Assembly (NCBI GenBank): GCA_000827205.1
Contig: KN832556.1
Span: 227,436 to 291,435 of the forward strand
Length of the DNA: 64,000 bases
Direction: 5' to 3'
DNA from: Plicaturopsis crispa FD-325 SS-3
Lineage: Eukaryota; Basidiomycota; Agaricomycetes; Amylocorticiales; Amylocorticiaceae
The notes under the pieces were generated by a model. The model did not search any database, was not told the DNA's origin, and was given only the letters and a program-made list of their open reading frames with translations. Within the stretch, counting starts at the first letter, position 1. Every line of letters begins with the position of its first letter. Both the position numbers and the translations under genes were made by a program. Shown piece by piece: positions 10,512 through 58,497 of this stretch.

Positions 10512-11004
10512 TCAATCAGGGGAGTCTGAAGAGCGTGGTTCAGCTGTGTAATTTTATCGAATGCTTAGACATTGGACTGATTTGTTTCACTTACCTGCAT
10601 GTCTAGCCCTCCGTCATGGATATCATTATTGTAGGAACCGTACTGTAATTCACACCTTGCATATGAGCCTAACTACATGTAAACTGCAGAAAATATTCAA
10701 CGTACGTATATGTTCTCGAGCACCTGCCCCCAGTGTATCTTTAGGGGATTTTTGTAAATAACGAGGAGGAGATGGCAAGCACTTTGCGAGTGCTAGTAGG
10801 TGCTACTAGTAGTGAGTATTGGTCGCGGTGCGATAGACTCGGACATAGACCGGGTCGGATTCCGGAAGCGAGTACGTACTCATTCCCCGCGGCAGTGGGC
10901 GGCGGCACCGACCATTTGAATTCTGGACAACTCCCTTCAGTCTGCAAGAAACTTTTCCAGCGACGGCGGTTCCTTCAGACCACGACATTCTCGAACTGGT
11001 TGAG
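10512..11004. other. Intergenic region upstream of the P5B ATPase
   Basis: About 490 bases. The reading frame of the ATPase stays open upstream of Met 11005 to a possible splice acceptor (CCTTCAG ending 10977), so a further upstream coding exon cannot be excluded. Confidence 0.4.
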
Positions 11005-14000
11005 ATGGTGGCGGGCAGCGGGTCAAACCAGCGGGAATACGAGAGTCACGACTACACCGAAGGCGCATCCGCTATCGACATCGACTTTGCCCTCGCGAAT
11101 AACAGACGATCGCGCCGAGACTCGCAATACAGCGAAGATGGCGTAGGCGAGATGTTCGACGGGCCCGGGCACTCTGTCAATCCGAGCAGTGTGTCGCGGA
11201 TGTCGCACTTCGAGCGCGGCGTCGAGGGGCGCAGAAGTGGGGAGTGGTCGCGGTCGCGGCGGAAAAGCCATGATTCCGGTCGTGGAAATGGAGAGAGAAT
11301 ACGGAGTCGGCGCGCTAGCAGGAGTGGCCAGTCGTCTCAGGAAGAGGAAGCGCAGAGTGAGGAAGAGGAAGAACAGGCGGGCAACGGGGATGCTGCAAGC
11401 TCGTCGGGCAGACAATTGAGGTCTCGGCGGCGACGAAAATCCGTATCTCCCTCTGCAGCCGCTGGTGCTGGTATGTTTGGAAACATTGCACATCTCTTTA
11501 CACGATCTACAACCGGTGAATCCTCTCACGTCCGCGCACCCTCATTCTCGCAGCGTTCCTCTGCTTCCAGTCGACGTTCACCCAGCCGACATTCCGACGC
11601 GGGATCGGACTATGCGCTCGAGACAGACGACGAAGGAGAGGAGAGGTGGGGGTATTCATCTGGCGAGGAGGACGAATACTCTGAGAACGGTGATGCACGA
11701 GGCGATATCAGTCCAAGGCCGAGCGAGGAGCTCGACTACGGCTCGTACCCGCCCTCTCCAACCACATCGCTCCCACTTCTAGCGGCCGACCCTATATTTG
11801 GTGAAGAGACTCGCATAGACATGGACGGCGTCGCACTAGATACCATGGCTCCACCACCACCCGGGCCTCCAAGTCGGCAAACGATCTATGTCGCGGACGA
11901 GGACAGTACGATTCGCTTCATCGGGTACGAGACTGTGCGCTACCGTCAATACCTCTGGCGTCTCGCGTGCGTTCTTACATGCGGCATTCTGGGTCTCCTT
12001 GGGCACTGGTTCCCTCGCCTCTGGCTGCGGTGGGTCGCGCGTGAGAAAGCATTCAAGGACACGAAAGATGGGTTCGTCGTAGTTGAGGTGGGTCCCCTCT
12101 ATTTGCAGGCCTGCTCGATCTGAGCGATGCATCATCCAAGGTGGCCAACAGAGATGTGACTTTATACCCCATGCGAGTTTTAGAATATCCATACCACATT
12201 TCTACTGTCTTCCCGGGGAATGCACCGCCAGAGTCGCTCTCGTCTCGGCCTTCGATATCCGCTCCTACCAAACCAAGCATTGGATCCGAAGATGAAATTT
12301 CCATGCTTGAGGAGCTACGCGTTATCGACTATCGATACTCGCGATTTGCTTTGGACCCCAGGAATGGGCTCTTTGCTATGACAAGGTACCCGTGGTTTAT
12401 CCAGCGTGCAATTTACGGCAAGCATACTGAATTACAAGCAGAGACTGGAGAGATCCTTTTTGGACCGGTGTCTCCTCTGTGCAGAACGGTCTTGAGCAAC
12501 CAACTCGCAAGCAACGGCTCGCGCTGTTTGGCGCTAACGAAATTGACATTGAGGGCAAATCGGCCGTGTCATTGTTAATTGATGAGGTATGTCGCCAACG
12601 TATCACCATTTTGTGATACCTTCTCTAATTCTCCAATGCACAGATCATCCATCCGTTCTATGTTTTCCAAATTGCTAGCATCATTTTGTGGTCTCTCGAC
12701 GACTACTACTACTACGCATTTTGCATTGCGCTCATCTCCACGCTCAGCGTCTCCGCTACGCTTATAGAGACACAAAAGGTGTGTTTACCTCCCATTTACG
12801 AGAAGCTTGTCTAATGCCGGAAACAGACCATAAAACGCATGCGAGATATGTCCCGGTTCTCATGCGCTGTTGACGTTTTCATTGACGGGATATGTAAGTT
12901 TCTCTGTTTACAATTCAGATTATTTGTTCACAATATGCTCAACAGGGATGCAACGTGAATCGACGGCTTTGGTACCCGGGGATATTGTGAATCTATCCTC
13001 TTCGCAGCTGTTCTCCGTTCCCGCGGACATGTTCCTCCTTTCCGGCGACGCTATTGTGAACGAGTCGATGCTCACCGGAGAGTCTATCCCTGTCAGCAAG
13101 ATTCCCGTTGGCGATTATGAACTTGTCAAATGGAAGGAGCTCAAAGACATCGACGCGGAAGGGACCCGGTGCTTTTTGTATGCTGGAACAAGAGTAGTCA
13201 GGATACGAGGCGCGCTTGCTGCCGATGGGAGCACAGGGAGACCGGCATTAGCACTTGTCGTACGAACCGGTATGTTCCCTTCACTCGCTGTTTTGTTGCT
13301 CAACCTCATGGTGTGGACAGGCTTCAACACCACCAAGGGTGCCTTGGTTCGATCTATGTTGTTCCCCAAGCCTATGGGATTCAAATTCTATCGCGATTCG
13401 ATCAGATTCATTGGTGTACTGGCTGGCATTGCAGGCCTTGGTTTCTGTGCTAGTGCAGTCCAGTTCGTGCGACTGGGGGTATGTTTTTGATCAAGATGAC
13501 GCATTCTTTCAGTCACTCATGGACGAACTTCAGGTCAAATGGCACACTATAGTCATTCGAGCACTTGACCTCATTACTGTTGTCGTGCCACCTGCTCTCC
13601 CCGCGACACTTTCCATCGGGACTAGTTTCGCCATCGGCCGCCTTCGAAAGATTGGCATATATTGCATCTCCCCAAGCAGGGTAAACGTCGGCGGTAAGGT
13701 CAACGTGTGTTGTTTTGACAAGACGGGGACGCTCACGGAGGACGGACTTGATATCCTCGGAGTGCGCGGGCTGGACCGCAGCTCCCAACGGTTTGGGGAA
13801 CTGCTAGACGACGTGCACGATCTTCCGTCTGGAAACCCCAAGGACAAGGCCAGCTTCCTGCACGCTCTCGCTACTTGCCACTCGCTGAAGATGGTGGACG
13901 GGGCCGCGATCGGCGATCCGCTCGACGTCAAGATGTTCGAGTTCACCAAGTGGACGTTGGAAGAGGGTATTGTGGCGGGTACCGGAAAGATTAAGGAACG

Positions 14001-16316
14001 GGGCGGTGGTGAGCCACGTCCGGCCGCCCTAGTGCAAACTGTTGTGCGTCCTCCGGGAAGTGCCCAGTTCAGGTTAGAAGATGCTTTGAAGGGTGCAACG
14101 AAGGTAAGATTCACAGTTCCTTTTTTATAACAAGTGGAACCTGACATCCATCTGCTATAGCATGCACATTTCCTCGAACTAGGTGTTATCCGGACGTTCG
14201 AGTTCGTGTCAAGTCTTCGGCGCATGAGCGTCGTGGTCAAGCGGCTGAAAAGCACAAGCATGGAAGTCTACGTCAAGGGCGCTCCGGAAGTCATGGCGGA
14301 TATCTGCGATAGGGATTCGTGTAGGTGGTGAAGATATGTCCGAGGCATGGTCAACTTAACGTATGCACGTCCACAGTTCCGCAGGATTACGATGACTTGC
14401 TGTCGTACTACACCAAACGAGGATACCGTGTCATTGCCATTGCGGGCAAGAGCATCGAGGGTCTGTCGTGGCTGAAAGCACAGCGGATGAAACGGCGAGT
14501 ACATTTTGTCTTTACCTCGTTGCGTGCTAACCGTCGTATGGATTTTCTCAACGACAGAGAACAAGCAGAGTCCGGCCTTCGCTTCATGGGGCTGATCATC
14601 TTTGAAAACAAACTGAAGCCGGGAACTGCGCCAGCTATCCAGGCCCTCCGCTCTGCACATCTGGCATGCCGCATGATCACGGGGGACAACCCGCTCACTG
14701 CCGTGAGCGTTGCTCGGGAGTGCAGCTTGATAAACCAGGCAGCGCATGTATTTGCTCCGCTGTTCGTTCAAGGTATTTTCCATCTTGACTTGCGTTCACG
14801 ACTGACCGCGAATACTGATGTGATGACAAGGTGGTCCCACCGTTCCCCACTCTACCATCGAGTGGACGTGCATGGACGACAGTGCATGGAAATTAGATAG
14901 CTATAGTCTCAAGCCGCTTCCACCACCGCTGCATCACACGGTTGAAGCCGACGAAGTCGACTATCAGGATTGCGCGCTCGTCGTGACCGGCGATGTCTTC
15001 CGATGGATGATCAACCATGCGCCCCTTGAGACCCTTCAGCGGGTAGGCCATCTCTTGTGATTCGTTTACATAGAGCGCTGATGCATCAAATCCAGATGCT
15101 TGTCAAGGCACAAATTTTTGCGCGCATGTCCCCGGACGAAAAGAACGAGGTTGTAGAGAGGCTGCAGTCGCTCGGCTACACCGTGATGATGTGCGGAGAC
15201 GGTGCAAACGACTGCGCTGCGCTGAAAGCTGCTGACGTAGGCATCTCGCTGTCCGAAGCTGAGGCGTCTGTCGCCGCACCGTTCACGAGCAGCACGCCGG
15301 ACATTGGCTGCGTTATCGAGGTAATTAAGGAGGGTCGCGCTGCTCTGGTCACTAGCTTCAGTTGTTTCAAATATATGTGGGTCTCGCACGAAACCCGCTG
15401 CGAAGGAGATACTGATTATTGTTTGAAAGGGCGTTATATTCACTCATTCAGTTCACGACTATCACTCTGTTGTACTCATTTGCATCATCTCTGGGGGATT
15501 TCCAAGTGCGTATTTCATATAGCGATGGCAAGCATTCGGTGTACTCATTCGCTCTGCAGTTTTTATACATTGATCTATTCATCATCATTCCCGTGGCTGT
15601 TACTAGTAAGTGCATTCATCCTACAGCACGCCCTGATCTCAACTCCTACTCCAGTGGGCCGCACACTCCCTTACCCTCGCATCTATCCAAAACGACCAAC
15701 GGCGAGCCTCGTGTCCAAGAAGGTATTGGCCAGCATTATCGGTCAAATCGTCATCACAAGTGCCATCCAATTCTGGGCCTTTTTCTGGGTGCGCGCTCAG
15801 GATTGGTATACACCTCCTCGCGGAGACACGGACGCCGGGGGCGACAAGTTATCGGCGACAAACTACGAAAACTCGTCGCTGTTCTTGATTTCATGTTTCC
15901 AGTACATCCTCGTCGCTGCTGTGTTCAGCATCGGGCCACCGTACCGAAAATCAATATGGACAAACGGTGAGCATGCCCACACGTTGGAGTTGTGCTATCA
16001 ATGATAGACTGATACTCCATCTGCAGGATGGCTCATGTTCTCGCTGGTTGTCCTTCTGGTCTTCAACACCGTGGTCCTGCTATATCCGCCACAATCCGTG
16101 GCGTTGCTCTTGGAGCTCATGCCACTTCCTTTCTCCGCACGGGTGACCTTCCTGACTGCTGCGGTCATCAACGTGGTGTTGTCGATGGCCTTTGAGCAAT
16201 GGGGGGCCCAAGCCGCTGCGCAGCTCGTCGGCGGCCTGCTGCGGCTTCGTCGCCAGGATCGACGGCGGGTGCGAGACGGAAAGGCGTACAAGGCTATCGA
16301 AGGCGGTATGCGATGA
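11005..16316 (+). CDS. YPK9-like: P5B-type cation-transporting ATPase (Ypk9/ATP13A2 family)
   Basis: Seventeen exons joined in frame to 1478 residues: 11005-12087, 12141-12385, 12442-12586, 12644-12778, 12827-12893, 12946-13269, 13321-13478, 13534-14103, 14161-14320, 14377-14494, 14558-14772, 14831-15042, 15096-15376, 15430-15505, 15560-15605, 15655-15966 and 16027-16316. Seen: TGES (about 602-605, actuator), PPALP (738-742, the P5B signature in M4; P5A has PPELP), DKTGT with the phosphorylated Asp at about 781, and GDGAND (about 1178-1183, hinge). The N-terminal 300 residues are acidic and Ser/Arg-rich, typical of a long cytosolic tail. Known for the family: late endosome/vacuole P-type pumps; animal ATP13A2 exports polyamines, and yeast Ypk9 affects metal tolerance. 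Intron 10 starts with GC (14495), forced by the frame. The start may lie further upstream. Confidence 0.95.
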
Positions 16317-21727: not shown

Positions 21728-22204
21728 ACTTGATAGCCTGCCTCCTGGTTCTCTCGAGATTGCGAACGTGAAGTTTTGAGGTGCGGTAGCGAGATACGAC
21801 CAAATGGTGAGGGGTTGTAAGGTAGAAAGTATTCACTTGAGAGAATAGAACCTTGCGCGCTCAAGCGCTCAACGTCGGCCCGCTCGCCTCGAGGAAGGCT
21901 CTAACAAGATTATGTCGTCTTTCCAAATGGAATCAACTTCAAGAAAGTAGTATGGATTGCGTAGACGGCGTTACTGACTCTGATGACACCCATTAACCCG
22001 CTACGTGGTAAGTAAAGAAAAATAACAAGGAAAGAGAAAAGCCAAAAGCCATGTCGACAGAGCGCACTCGCCAGAAGCAGCGATCACAACACCCCGTACG
22101 ACAGCAAGAAGTGAAAATTGGAAAGGATGAAAGATATATACACCTGCAAGCAGTGCACACGGCCCCGCTGGAATTTTGCTCCTCTTCAACGACCCGACAC
22201 TTTC
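21728..22204. other. Intergenic between J-domain gene and antizyme
   Basis: About 480 bases. It should contain the J-domain promoter and the antizyme 3' UTR (both genes minus). No coding signal. Confidence 0.5.
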
Positions 22205-23352
22205 TCAGATCTCCATCCCGACCAGCACGTACGCAGGGTCGACCTGGAACGGGGGCTTCGTGACGACGGTCCCTCCGACGTACATCAGCGAGTGAAGCAG
22301 GTCACCGAGCGCAGGGGAGCTACGCTCCAACGCAATCACCATTGCCGTACACTCCAGTCGCTCATCCGCCAAATCCAACAGCGCGACGATGCTGCAATCG
22401 GAATCAATATCACATGGAATCGTTGGAAGCTAGGGGCAGCGTACCTCTCGCGAAGGCTGACAGCCTCTGCATTCTTGCCATCCACGTAGAGCGTAGTGTC
22501 CAAGACAACACCGTCGAAGGCTATGCCCGTGTTCGGCGCCGACACAGTGACACTTTTAGCTTTCGGGAGCAGAGCGATCCCATCGCGCGGGAACACACTG
22601 AGCAGGAAGTCAAGAGCATCCTTCTGCGGGTTTTGGGCACCTCCGCACGCGCCATCTTCGGGGGTCATGGGCGGCGTAGCGAGGGTATCGGCGGACCGTA
22701 CGACATTCTTGCTCGGGATGGTCTGCGGTCCAACAGAGGGAGTGGGTACGTCGAAAGGATCGCCGGCTTCTCGGGGCGGAGTCGGCAGGTAAGAAGATTG
22801 GTTGTAGCTGGAGTCGGTGGATATGGAACACTCGGAATCGGATGATAATGAAGACGTGGAAGAGGAAATAGACGCCGGCCTGCCTCTCACGCAGTCCGAC
22901 GACCCTCGATCGGGAGGGCATTTCAGTTGGGGGACGTCAAACCCGCCACTGTGGGAAGAATAAAGTTAGCATGTAGGTTGCGGTCGGTGGGATTTTACGT
23001 TGGTCATATGAACAGAGGCTACGTCAGGATTTGCGATCGTGGGTTTCGGTCCCATAATCCCTGTAACGAACGTGCTCCCCAAGACACTTGCGGAGAAACA
23101 CTCACCCCTGGCCCCCCGGAGAACGTAGTAGAATAGTAGTACACGTCGTCGTTGCCTTGTACCTGGCAGACGGCAAGCACACTAGGCGCAGCGTCGGTGA
23201 AGAAAGCCCCATCTCCAACGGCTTGACGGCCGTTGCTGCAATGAAATGTCAGTTTGCGCTTCATTTCGTCCGAAATGAAGTGGCGAGTGAACGTACGTGG
23301 GGCAAAGACTAGATTTCGTATTCATAAAATTCGACATAGTGGAATTCGACAT
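22205..23352 (-). CDS. OAZ: Ornithine decarboxylase antizyme, with +1 programmed frameshift
   Basis: Exons 23352-23297, 23235-23106, 22948-22445 and 22391-22205. ORF1 starts MSNSTMSNFMNTKSSLCPT and runs 65 codons to TGA at 22939-22937, just inside exon 3 (TGG CGG GTT TGA). Skipping one base opens ORF2 (DVPQLKCPPDRGSSD...), ending in the antizyme core: LLDLADERLECTAMVIALE, RSSPALGDLLHSLMYVGG, TVVTKPPFQVDP, YVLVGMEI. Full product about 291 residues. Known: antizyme binds ornithine decarboxylase, sends it to the proteasome and blocks polyamine uptake; high polyamine raises the +1 shift. A Ser-rich acidic insert lies between the junction and the core. Divergent from RPS2 across about 450 bases. 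Confidence 0.92.
22937..22942 (-). promoter_or_regulatory. Programmed +1 ribosomal frameshift site (GTT TGA C)
   Basis: On the minus strand the zero frame reads TGG CGG GTT TGA and the +1 frame continues GTT-(T)-GAC-GTC-CCC. Most antizymes use TCC-TGA; here the P-site codon is GTT. Position after about 65 codons of ORF1 and the conserved start of ORF2 fit the family. The site lies 7 bases after a splice junction (exon 2 ends ...CCAGGG, exon 3 starts TGGCGG). Confidence 0.8.
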
Positions 23353-23804
23353 GTGCTGCCAACTTGTTCAGGGACTTTGTGAGGGTTTGAGTAGAGGTCT
23401 ATGCAGAAATTTAGCGTCAAACGGGATAGAACGAGGCTCGCGACGCACTGGAAACAGAGCAGGTGGTGGTAAAAGCGAGAGAGATACGGAGCCGCCGCAA
23501 AGTGCAACCGCGCCCCTTTGGTCGGCTCGGAACTTGCGATCCGACGTTTCAAGCCCCGACGAGGCACCCGAGTTCCGACTCGATACGCAGCGATACCGGA
23601 AATCTGTGTACAGCGAGCTCGACATTCCCCCCTCCCCTCAAGATGTGAGTCCCTTCATGCTGCTTGGATGTTCTCTGGCGATGTAGAAAGGTCTTATGGA
23701 CGTCTGGTCCAAAACCCGGAGGATGGAGAACAAGAATTGGGGATGGATGCGTCGACCGATGGCTGGATGACATTGCTAACGCACTTTTCAGTAAATAACA
23801 CGAT
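23353..23804. promoter_or_regulatory. Bidirectional promoter of antizyme and RPS2
   Basis: About 450 bases between the two divergent starts. On the RPS2 side a probable 5' UTR intron runs from GTGAGT (about 23644) to TTTTCAG (about 23792), ending 12 bases before the ATG. On the antizyme side an upstream open frame (Met at 23625, minus) is followed by GTGCGT and an AAG acceptor near 23362; it is out of frame with the chosen start and may be a leader with its own small ORF. Confidence 0.45.
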
Positions 23805-24684
23805 ATGGCTGACGCACCGCGCGGACGTGGAGGATTTGGACGTGGACGTGGTGACAGAGGGCGCGGACGTCGTGGTCCCCGTCGTGGAGGCCGTGATGAG
23901 GAGAAGGAGTGGTACGTGCTACTACTGCACATACCTCTAACGCGAAACCTGACGACCTCGTGCAGGGTTCCCGTCACAAAGCTGGGCCGTCTCGTAAAGG
24001 ATGGCAAAATCAAATCAATGGAGGAGATCTACCTCTTCTCGCTACCCGTCAAGGAGTACCAAATCGTCGACTTCTTCCTCCCGAAACTCAAGGACGAGGT
24101 CATGAAAATCATGCCCGTGCAGAAGCAGACGCAGGCCGGCCAGCGCACGCGCTTCAAGGCGTTCGTCGCCATCGGTGACTTTGACGGACACGTCGGACTC
24201 GGTGTCAAGTGCGCGAAGGAAGTCGCGACTGCCATCCGTGGTGCCATCATCCTTGCCAAACTCAGCGTCATTCCCGTACGGAGAGGTTACTGGGGTGCCG
24301 CCCTCGGAGAGCCGCACACAGTGCCCTCGAAGGTCAGCGGGAAAGTTGGATCCGTCATGTGTCGGTTGATTCCCGCACCGAGGGGGACTGGTATCGTTGC
24401 CGCACCCGCATCTAAGCGGTTGCTGCAGCTTGCCGGTGTGGAGGATGTGTACACCCAGTCGAAGGGATCGACCGCGACCATGGGTAACTTCTTGAAAGCT
24501 ACTTTTGCCGCCGTACGTTCTATTTTGCGTCCGAGTCGACGAGTTCTCATCCGTGTCTTTCTAGATCACGAAAACCTACGCATTCCTCACACCCGATCTG
24601 TGGCGCGAAATCCCTGTGTCGAAACTCCCATACGACGAGCACAGTGCCCACCTTCAGCTTGCGGGCAAGAAGTCTGCGTACTAG
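23805..24684 (+). CDS. RPS2: Cytosolic 40S ribosomal protein S2 (uS5)
   Basis: Three exons (23805-23911, 23966-24512, 24565-24684), in frame, 257 residues, normal for the family. The N-terminus is Gly/Arg-rich ([16 protein letters not shown]), a known site of arginine methylation. The uS5 core is unmistakable: [70 protein letters not shown] and the S5 C-terminal domain to [12 protein letters not shown]. It acts in the small-subunit decoding region at the mRNA entry site. Confidence 0.98.
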
Positions 24685-25090
24685 ATTGCGAGGGTTTGAC
24701 AGGATTTGGATGTTGTGGTGCTATCATGTATCTCTTTTCAAAATTGAAGGTCACGGCCTTACCACTGCTATGAATATGCGCATGCCCGTACCTATGATCT
24801 GTTGAGATATGATATCCTCCTTGCATTTCTGTATGAGCACCGAGTAGAGCGACAAAAAGCATTTCAGGGACAATAAATATCAGTCAGTTCGCAGGCAACT
24901 GGCTGGCACGCGCGTGGCCGCGGGCCAGAGTCGCGCCCAAGTCGCGCCTTTTCTTTTGTTCTCTCATCCGGTTGTCAACATGTTTTGTTACCTCAAATAC
25001 ACGCTGGAAGTGGACCAGCATTCCCTCACAAATGCTTTCTGCTACAAGCACCCTAAACCTCTGATATAACGCGAAAACATACGAAACGAC
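24685..25090. other. Intergenic, RPS2 terminator and P450 no. 2 promoter
   Basis: About 400 bases with no coding signal. Both flanking genes are on the plus strand. Confidence 0.5.
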
Positions 25091-34156: not shown

Positions 34157-37100
34157 TCAGGACCGACGGTTGTACCGGTGCTGCTGCTGTTGCTGCAGAG
34201 ACACGTTGTTATTCCGCCCGGGGACGAATAGAGCGCTACGGTTGTACGAGCTGCGCTCTTGCCTCCCGCGGTGCGTGGGCTCCGGGAATGGTTCGACAAG
34301 ACCCTGGTTCGGACCAGGGTCCGAGTAGAATATCTTCGGCCGCCATGCCTCACGCTCGTTCATGATGCACGAGTTCTTGAACTTCTCGACGAGCGCCTCT
34401 TTACCTCTGAATGCGGACGCGTCAGAAAGGACCTACATATGCTAAGGAAGACCTACTGAAAGTTGGCGTAGCTCATCTGAAGTACTTTCTCGCTGGAGAA
34501 CATATTCCTGAATGTATCACGGATTGTCAAGATGAGGCAACCGGTCGATAACTGACGACCACATACCATTTAACGCCCAAGGTGGCATTCGCAAAATGCA
34601 AGAGGTCCTCCACTCCGATAAAATTGACGAATGCATACCCAACGTTGCATCCTGCCGCAAAGGAAAATGTTAGATAGTAAACAACACCGAGGAGAGCAGA
34701 CGTACCGTTCTGGAAGTCCATCCTCAAATACAAGAAATCGATCTTCCTCGGGCACACCCGGTCGATGTACTTCTTCAAGTCCACGTCGCTCATCTTGTTA
34801 GGAATGTTCTTGATCATCACCGTCGTGCGCATGTCCTGCCCCATCTCGATCTTCTCGAGGTTCAGCTGGTTGTTCTCCGGCTGGTTCCGCAGCTGGGCAT
34901 CGACGGGGGACGTGGGCGAGGGCGGTGCGTGCGCAGGCGTCTGCGGATACTCTGGCTGCTGCTGTGCGGGGTACTGCAGGTCGTGGCGCGGCACTAAGTC
35001 CAGACGAGGTGGTGCCGGATACTGAGCTTGTTGTTGCTGCTGGTAGTACAGCCCGCCGCCCGGGTAATAGTACTCGCCACCATTGGCCTGAGCCGCCATC
35101 ATCATCGCGTTCTCGAAGGACCAATGGGGGTGCTGCAGCAGCTCGGAGTCATAGGCGTACGTGGTGGAGGTCGCCGGGGCAACTGGCACCGGAGGCATCG
35201 GGAACTGCAGCGAGGGTGATATAGGCGTCGGAGGCATCGCGTACGCGGGCGGAGACGCTTGCTGCGGATAGTTGTTGTAATACGAGACGAGTCCCGATGG
35301 CTCGGAGTTGCCACAGAACGCGCTGAAGGGTGGGTGCTGCGACTGAGTGTGCATTGGAGGGGCGTCCTGTTCGACATCGATGCTCAGCATCCCGGGACGC
35401 TCCTGGATCGCCTGAGCGTCGTTCTGGGAGCTGCTCAGGAAGACTTTATGCGGCTTCCCGGTAGAGTCGAAGAAGAGGTGGTTGGAGGTGTGGCGACTAT
35501 GCGTTTCCGGTGACACCTGATACGAGTCGGGCGAGGAGTAGAGACACGCCGATGGGTGCGGCGCAGGAGCCGCGTCAGTCGGTCGCCCAGCGCTGATGCT
35601 ACGCAACCGCACGTCCTCGTTCGTCTGGGGGATGAACGTATGAGGTGCATTAGACAGTTGTAGATGATCGTGAGGAGGGGCGCTCGGGAAAGGGACCGTG
35701 CTCCTGGTGGGCGTCTGCGGATTGCCATCACGCTCAAGAGGAGTGCTGAGGTTCGGAGCAATGGGCTTGCTCTTGAATTCCCGGCCGAAGAGGCGCAGTT
35801 TGACGCCTGACACGACCTTTCCATTGAGCGCTGCGTAGGCATCGTCGGCGTGCCTGATATCGCAATACTCGGCGTGGAACACCTGCAAGGTTTTCACATG
35901 AATCTGCTAAATTGTACATATCGACTGGAAAACGTACCTGCCCTCCATCGGCGCCCAGAGATGACTCGTCTCCGCCTCCAAACGCGCATATCCACCCGAA
36001 GCCACGCAGTATATCGCGTATCGTCGCGGATGCGATGAATGAATGCCTGGTCGCGTTTCCAGCACTCCCGGTCACTAACCTATCGGTCGCGTCGACGGGC
36101 CCGACGGACACGCGGAAATGGCCCTCCGTCTCCGTAACGAATTTCGACTGCCCAATCAACTAGAGCACTATCAGCACCGAGAATCAGTCTATCTTTCGGT
36201 AACATACCTCCGAGAGTTTATCGGGAGAGATGAACTCGCATAAGAGCCTCTTTTCAGGCGAGGCGCCTTCATTCCCCACCGCCCGTCGATACTCGCTGTC
36301 TTCATGGTCGGCACCATGATCCACAGCACGCTCAATAGCACGTTTTGCCCGCCCTGCGACTAGAAGGTCGTAGAACGCGAGAACGACGATGCCGTGCTCG
36401 CGCTGCAGCGTAACGTACATGCCCTTGATGGCGTCATCGGCTGTAGCAATGCGCGCGGGGCGGCTGCGACTCGACCCCTCGGCGATGTCCAGAGCGGAGA
36501 ACGTAGAGGAGAGGGCGCGGACGGACGCGTCGGGAGGGCTGAGCACGGTGTGCGGGAGGGCCGCGAAAATGGCGCGTTTCAACGCGTCCGTCGGCATTTC
36601 CTTGGGGACGTTGCGAATCTACGCGTCAAAAGCAGCTGTGTAAGTATCATGCCTAAATGCGAATTCGAGGACTTGTTGTTACCAGTAAGAATCGACTAGC
36701 TGGAAACTCATCCTCGACTTCTTTTTCCGCGCCTGACGCATCGTCACTTTTCACCTCCTCGGGTTCGTTATTTGAGGTGCCCCGACTACTGCCACTCCTC
36801 AGCGACGACGACGGGGTGAGAGGCGGTGTCAGAAGATTGTGGGCGTGCGAGAGCGAATGTTTGTGTAATTTGTGCTGCTGGTGGGATTTTTTCGTACTCG
36901 AAAGCGAAGGTGCCTCCGAACACGAATTAGAGGCTGGCTCGCCCGACGATACGACCGTGGATTTGAGAGGGGAAGACGAGCTAGAACCCGATTCCGATGT
37001 GAGGGAGGGCGGAGTACGCGGTCTGGTGAGGTCCTTCAGGGACCGTTCAGCGAGATGCGGAGGGATCGGTCCATAGTGTGGTGGAAGCCTGCCGAACAAC

Positions 37101-56863: not shown

Positions 56864-58497
56864 ATGTCTGCACCCCAGTTTCCCGCCTTACCCTCAGTGA
56901 ATCCGACAGTGCTTCCCCTCGAGCTCGTCGAGGTCCTAAACCACACATATTTCCTGCACCTCCTCGCTACAGATCCGTCCAAGGTTCTGCCTCCAGGGAA
57001 ATCTCTCCTAGCCATGATGTCGCGCTCACATATACAGGGCGATCGCCCCCACGACACACCGCCGAGCCTTCAGGAAAAAGTTGAAGATATGGTCCACCAA
57101 GCTTTCTGGGACGAGGTGCGCTCGATCTGCTCATGTTTCGTACCAACTGGCGTCTAGCCTAAGCATATGCGCAGGCTCTGGAGTCGTTATCGAGCCCCGA
57201 ACCATCCAGGCAGCTACCTCGTTTGAAGCATCTATATAAGGATCTCCTTGACGCGCTGACTCCATTGCTCCCCCCACAACACCCGATCATCATATTGCTA
57301 TCTTCGCCACTCTCCCCGACGCCTTCACCTTTACTTTCCGCAATCAACCATCTCCGTGATATCGTTGCTTGTCTCCGCGAGCGTTGCGCCCCTGCACGCG
57401 ACGAGTATGCCGACGAACTCCTTCACGCGCTGGCCGATCCCTCTCTGTTCTCTTCCTCGCCCTCCGTTAGCCCTGCACAATTGATTGTCAACACCGTGAA
57501 ATCTATTCTCAAATTAACAGACGTAATGAAGGATGACTTATCGCAGTTTGTTCTCGGTACGATGGGCGAAAAGCAGCTGCGAACGACCATCGTTCAACAG
57601 GCCCGGGCCCGCGAGCGCGAAGTCGTACTCAGCATATGGAAACCTGGGAAAGTACAAGAGGACTGGAAGACATGGCTCAGCGAGCTCTCTCTGCCACACG
57701 CGGATGCGAATGCACAACTGTGGATTATCAGACTTTTACAGGCATTAGGCTCGGACGAGGCCGTGTCGTGCCATCCGCCGACTGTGACGGTGTCCGTTTC
57801 GCCCACGACCAATGACGTAGACGCAGTCCTCGATGCACCTCCAGTTCAACCTCTCAACGCCCTCCCGCCAACGTTCTTCTTCTCACACCCCGCGCTCCTG
57901 TATCTCCAGAATTACATTCAAGCCGTGGTAATAGCCGCAGCCCTCCGCTCTCTCACCCGCCTCCCTGCATCCTCGCCCTCCAACGACTTCATGCAGCGCG
58001 TGTGGACCCTGCTCAAGGCCGAGATCGACGGCGAAGAGGGCGCGGGGGACACAAAGCTCGTGAACCTCGCCGACGAAGTCATCCGCGCGCGAAGGCAGGG
58101 CGCCGCCGACATCGACGCAGACGAAGAAACCCGCCTCCGCGATGCCGTCGCGCGCACGCTGCAGCCTCGCGACCCCGTGTTTCTCCTTCTGCGCACACGG
58201 CTCGTGTCCGCGCTCGCGGCTCACTTCGCGCAGCCGCGCGTGGTGCACGCCCTGCCTGACGCACCGCAGCACATGAAAACGGGGCGGGAAGACCGTCGGG
58301 CGGCACGGTCCCATCTTTTCTTAGATCAGGAACCCACCGAGGAGGACGAAGGACACGATGAGGCTCCGCTCACCGTGAAAGGGTTCGAGGATACTGTATT
58401 ACTAGGTGCGGTTGATGACGCAGTCAAGGCGATCAGGAAGTGCACCGACTGGGTTGAAGGAACATGGGCAGATGTCGTTGCGTTGAAGCTACCGTAG
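56864..58497 (+). CDS. SOK1-like: T-complex protein 11 (Tcp11/SOK1) family protein
   Basis: Two exons (56864-57115, 57175-58497), in frame, 524 residues. Tcp11 hallmarks: KVEDMVHQAFWDEALESLSS, PSRQLPRLKHLYKDLLDALT, PIIILLSSPLSPTPSPL, INHLRDIVACLRERCAPARD, TVKSILKLTDVMKDDLSQFV and LGTMGEKQLR. Yeast Sok1 is a multicopy suppressor of protein kinase A loss, and mammalian TCP11 also touches cAMP signalling; a similar link here is inferred. Cytosolic, all-helical. Confidence 0.93.

Follow-up and report, generated by a model that had tools for sequence, protein, structure and literature searches.

An Agaricomycete-type antizyme gene with GUU at its predicted +1 frameshift site

The locus described here lies within a window of 64,000 nucleotides (the whole stretch of DNA that was analysed) and is very probably the ornithine decarboxylase (ODC) antizyme gene of this fungus, expressed by programmed +1 frameshifting, the shift itself being extrapolated from experiments in Coprinopsis cinerea. 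Apart from its GUU shift codon the gene is ordinary. It is an antizyme of the known Agaricomycete kind whose shift codon falls outside the set published for that clade in the available text of PMC4505036. By analogy with its counterparts, it appears to be the gene by which the fungus limits its own polyamines.

The gene occupies the minus strand from a first ATG at 23352 to the ORF2 stop at 22205, as four exons separated by GT-AG introns of 61, 157 and 53 nt (Table 1). All splice junctions are predicted from the sequence. After this predicted splicing, ORF1 comprises 65 codons and ends in GGG UGG CGG GUU UGA; past its stop, the +1 frame reads on into ORF2 as DVPQLKCPP, and a protein joined by a +1 shift would have 291 residues. 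Exon 3 begins at 22948 with TGGCGGGTTTGAC, in which GTT starts at base 7. The original prediction had given the same outer limits while naming no strand, had ORF1 and ORF2 meeting at TGG CGG GTT TGA, and had set the shift site 7 bases into an exon. This layout holds throughout, with ORF2 in the +1 frame. At the start of ORF1, ATGTCGAATT occurs twice in tandem (23326-23352, minus strand), so that a second in-frame ATG follows 15 bases after the first, with C at position -3 of the first and A at position -3 of the second.

Table 1 Features of the antizyme gene, in window coordinates
Feature	Position	Strand	Comment
Exon 1 (CDS)	23297..23352	-	first ATG 23352, second in-frame ATG 23337
14-bp ORF1 stem	23206..23303	-	left arm 23303-23297 + 23235-23229, right arm 23222-23206 (spliced)
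Intron 1, 61 nt, GTACGT...CAG	23236..23296	-	within left arm of 5' stem
Exon 2	23106..23235	-	remainder of ORF1 to codon -4 (GGG)
Codons -15 to -5, YYYSTTFSGGP	23109..23141	-	published position of the nascent-peptide stimulator
Intron 2, 157 nt, GTGAGT...CTAAC...CAG	22949..23105	-	splits module A after its first base
Exon 3	22445..22948	-	remaining module A, then the shift site and the body of ORF2
Shift codon GTT 22942-22940 and ORF1 stop TGA 22939-22937	22937..22942	-	
AAAU 22923-22920 and two-stem 3' structure 22919-22873	22873..22923	-	stem 2 with 7-nt loop
Intron 3, 53 nt, GTACGC...CAG	22392..22444	-	junction 492 nt downstream of ORF1 stop
Exon 4	22205..22391	-	most of antizyme domain and ORF2 stop

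The ODC_AZ family (PF02100) matches exon 4 by itself (E 3.7e-10, 40.1 bits; curated cut-off 24.2) and also the joined protein (E 7.9e-11, 42.3 bits against the cut-off of 24.2; profile positions 28-95 of 114). On the predicted splicing, the gene has the two-ORF plan, its antizyme domain lying past the UGA in the +1 frame, and this position of the domain supports the earlier reading of an antizyme in which GUU, just ahead of UGA, is the site of a +1 shift. Genome-wide counts, which are lower bounds, place PF02100 at a single site in the 33.2-Mb genome (one candidate, one scored) and the junction pattern TGGCGNNTTTGAYGTNCC at one occurrence, with none in the backward control. They also place the ODC N-terminal family at one locus, so an ODC gene is present.

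Several other collections were searched. Among viral contigs, a collection holding no fungi, 86 pattern matches to exon 4 included no relatives; in prokaryotic genome contigs, none appeared among 593 pattern matches to exon 4 or among 71 to a 71-residue ORF spanning exon 2 and intron 1. The joined protein had no match in a plasmid collection. All of these collections are prokaryotic or viral, and the lack of relatives in them carries no information on fungi. Exon 4 matched no solved structure up to E 10, and the sole match of the joined protein to one was unrelated and weak (E 1.4). Rfam, its antizyme frameshift RNA families included, gave no match in the 64-kb window, nor in 22100-23500 up to E 1.

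The sequences around the junction follow the published Agaricomycete plan closely. Module A (G-UGG-CGN) directly precedes the shift site in that clade (PMC4505036), and GGG UGG CGG stands there in this gene, with its first base from exon 2 and the remainder from exon 3. Intron 2 divides the module, and in this sense splicing builds the 5' context of the shift site, as had been proposed. Frameshifting and its polyamine response are reported to be stimulated by 11 residues of the nascent peptide, encoded by codons -15 to -5 (PMC4505036), and the C. cinerea antizyme carries SGGP at codons -8 to -5 (PMC5009743). The same SGGP occupies those codons here, the peptide comparison with the available published text being limited to these four residues. 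An Ala-Val pair is also among the Agaricomycete antizyme features described (PMC4505036), and ORF1 holds two candidate pairs (residues 24-25 and 40-41).

In published Agaricomycete antizymes, a 14-bp stem within ORF1 lies 106 nt ahead of the shift site (PMC4505036); the predicted stem here likewise comprises 14 pairs, with 106 nt between its end and the shift codon. Among 840 CDS windows of 37 nt it ranks first for stability, and none of 1000 shuffles was as stable (z -5.1). Its predicted energy of -24.9 to -26.1 kcal/mol falls short of the published figure of 'at least 30' (PMC4505036). On the 3' side, AAAU abuts two predicted stem-loops that start 20 nt after GUU, or 19 nt when counted from GUU-U, and the published arrangement is of two adjacent stem-loops from 19 nt past the shift site, abutted by AAAU (PMC4505036). 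Against shuffles this structure is weak (z -2.1, 34 of 1000 as low; rank 12 of 830 windows). When the upstream RNA is free to pair, stem 2 keeps 0.91-0.95 and stem 1 falls to about 0, and in the 72-nt downstream stretch alone the structure forms with stem 1 included; a ribosome positioned at the shift site would mask the stretch that competes with stem 1.

Because these spacings fit the published values, chance is further excluded for the antizyme reading. The 106-nt and 19-nt distances given in the available text arise only with introns 1 and 2 removed as modelled, and this bears on whether alternative splicing might instead put ORF1 and ORF2 in one frame and make a frameshift unnecessary. 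Such joins exist on paper, with 46 one-intron GT-AG joins (40-400 nt) and two two-intron joins open into ORF2. However, the strong donor GTGAGT (23105) serves just 3 of the 46, and in those three the shift site is lost along with module A and the 3' structure; five joins retain the CAG acceptor at 22949, and these require GTACTA, GTTCTC, GTCTTG, GTTACA or GTAGCC as donor. In-frame splicing is thus extremely improbable, and we retain the reading of an antizyme gene with a +1 frameshift.

The shift codon is the one departure. In the available text of PMC4505036, UUU-UGA was found in all 34 Agaricomycetes and the one Dacrymycete analysed, 35 sites of 35, against GUU-UGA here. The original prediction had called GTT unusual by comparison with TCC; GUU-UGA is indeed present, but TCC is the wrong comparison for this clade, and the relevant contrast is GUU with UUU because that study reports UUU-UGA in every one of its 34 Agaricomycetes. 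The novelty of GUU is relative to this clade set as available in PMC4505036, and a first report is not claimed. In a literature search with the hyphenated spelling, no paper paired 'antizyme' with 'GUU-UGA'. The 2007 survey by Ivanov and Atkins, the main one of antizyme shift sites, reportedly includes several shift codons.

GUU is read from one assembly; it may be a trait of the lineage, or the base could be an assembly error or a strain allele in a species that itself uses UUU like its relatives. The uniformity of the 35 published sites, as given in the available text, points that way, as does the position of the changed base at the GGG/TTT boundary. Yet the change is a substitution and not a change of length, leaving the frame and the spacings intact, and the UUU form GGNTGGCGNTTTTGAYG occurs nowhere in the genome, although an intron between GG and TGG, as in this gene, would hide it. 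We consider an error or allele unlikely, and retain GUU as the probable shift codon.

The decoding of GUU was approached through the tRNA complement. In Saccharomyces cerevisiae, use of GCG as the antizyme shift codon has been tied to tRNA supply (available text of PMC5009743). In the tRNA search, 63 of 681 candidates were scored, 53 were listed and ARAGORN was run on 50 of those 53. It identified tRNA-Val(AAC) at two loci (L053 and L054; at least two, among the 50 tRNA loci examined) and tRNA-Val(TAC) at a further one of the same 50 (L035). A guessed tRNA-Val(AAC) pattern gave no occurrence in the genome and one in the backward control, and the pattern was wrong. A slip through a missing cognate, as for GCG in S. 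cerevisiae, was rejected: because the cognate tRNA-Val(AAC), a normal decoder of GUU, exists, the want of a decoder does not explain the slip.

By the pairing rules, the GUU tRNA re-paired on the +1 codon UUU would have a first-position mismatch, whereas the tRNA for UUU would pair perfectly. Because +1 re-pairing is imperfect, a lower intrinsic shift is expected with GUU. Probably, GUU either shifts less at equal stimulation or, like the canonical UCC, leans on weak re-pairing. If GUU holds, a clade reported with UUU-UGA only would contain a natural swap to a codon that re-pairs imperfectly in the +1 frame, in a gene that is otherwise standard. This would provide a clean natural test of P-site re-pairing against stop-codon context and nascent peptide in setting antizyme frameshifting, and with it the polyamine set point.

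On the model of C. cinerea experiments and general antizyme knowledge, the gene would work as follows. With GUU in the P site and UGA in the A site, part of the ribosomes would terminate and yield the 65-residue ORF1 product, and others would slip one base to the UUU-free frame GAC and complete the 291-residue antizyme, with a Val-Asp junction. Polyamines would boost the shift via the nascent peptide (codons -15 to -5), via module A and, more weakly, via the 3' stem-loops. The resulting antizyme would then reduce ODC and polyamine uptake.

The original prediction had also raised a regulatory coupling of splicing to the shift. The recoding elements cover about 148 of the 877 CDS bases (37 + 45 + 66), and the chance of at least two of three introns lying within them is p ~0.08. 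On this near-chance figure, a designed splice coupling was set aside. Moreover, in a fold of the unspliced RNA, 13 of the 14 pairs of the ORF1 stem stand at 0.75-1.0 and one at 0.01, even though intron 1 interrupts the left arm, which is contiguous in the mature mRNA alone. Regulatory coupling is unsupported on either count.

A related possibility is that splicing of intron 2, or nonsense-mediated decay (NMD), acts as a second, polyamine-linked control. Retention of intron 2 would swap the shift site for a stop after 90 codons (retained intron 1 would end reading after 56), and unshifted reading of the spliced mRNA ends 492 nt upstream of the last junction, which may expose that mRNA to decay; genes of the Mago nashi and UPF3 families are present in the genome. 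Set against this are the near-chance placement of introns within recoding elements and the available text of a 40S-profiling preprint (PMC12363938), in which yeast OAZ1 was not significantly NMD-sensitive. We judge such a control quite unlikely. The fuller version, in which splicing assembles the recoding signal as a second control, polyamines set the retention or removal of intron 2, and GUU gives a lower shift level suited to it, is very unlikely. Frameshifting at GUU, with ordinary intron removal, is the reading we carry forward.

The surroundings of the gene were also inspected. The gene for 40S ribosomal protein S2 (uS5; 23799-24773, plus strand; PF00333, PF03719) lies head to head with the antizyme gene, their start codons some 450 bases apart, and it is possible that the pair share a promoter region. 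A frame at 10849-12120 (plus) matches P5-type ATPases (PF12409) and another at 15030-16001 (plus) matches HAD hydrolases below the curated cut-off; the two may belong to a single gene for a P5-type ATPase. Some P5B ATPases transport polyamines, and one of this type so near an antizyme gene would be of interest, if true. The window further holds an RRM_2 (Mei2-like) domain protein (34530-35906, minus; PF04059) and a Tcp11 family protein (57163-58494, plus; PF05794). Genome-wide, class II peroxidases (PF11895) gave 11 match rows and GH7 one locus, whose exon matched the solved structures 2xsp and 1gpi about equally; these come from Heterobasidion and Phanerochaete, respectively. The class II peroxidase and GH7 genes, together with the anatomy of the antizyme gene, suggest a white-rot Agaricomycete.

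Among known systems, the UCC-UGA antizymes (e.g., mammalian antizyme 1) likewise shift +1 before UGA and have UGG two codons ahead of the shift codon, but they use another shift codon and a pseudoknot as 3' stimulator. Human antizyme 1 has DxP after the shift, as in the DVP of this gene. Bacterial release factor 2, with CUU-UGA-C against GUU-UGA-C here, shares the form NUU-UGA-C and the +1 codon UUU; it is an unrelated gene, with better re-pairing of the CUU tRNA and with a Shine-Dalgarno sequence as stimulator, and the likeness is one of site only. GlAZ of Ganoderma lucidum, in the available text of PMC9604110, also has TTTGA at the frame junction and a GT-AG intron, with a short product of 66 residues (65 here) and a full length of 333 (291 here). 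The C. cinerea and general Agaricomycete plan (PMC4505036) is shared here in module A, SGGP, the 14-bp stem, the 106-nt and 19-nt spacings, AAAU, two adjacent stem-loops with a 7-nt second loop, the UGA stop and the +1 frame. From C. cinerea itself, as described there, the gene differs in a 5' stem predicted to be somewhat weaker, in CGG in place of CGU at codon -2, and in GUU in place of UUU at the shift site.
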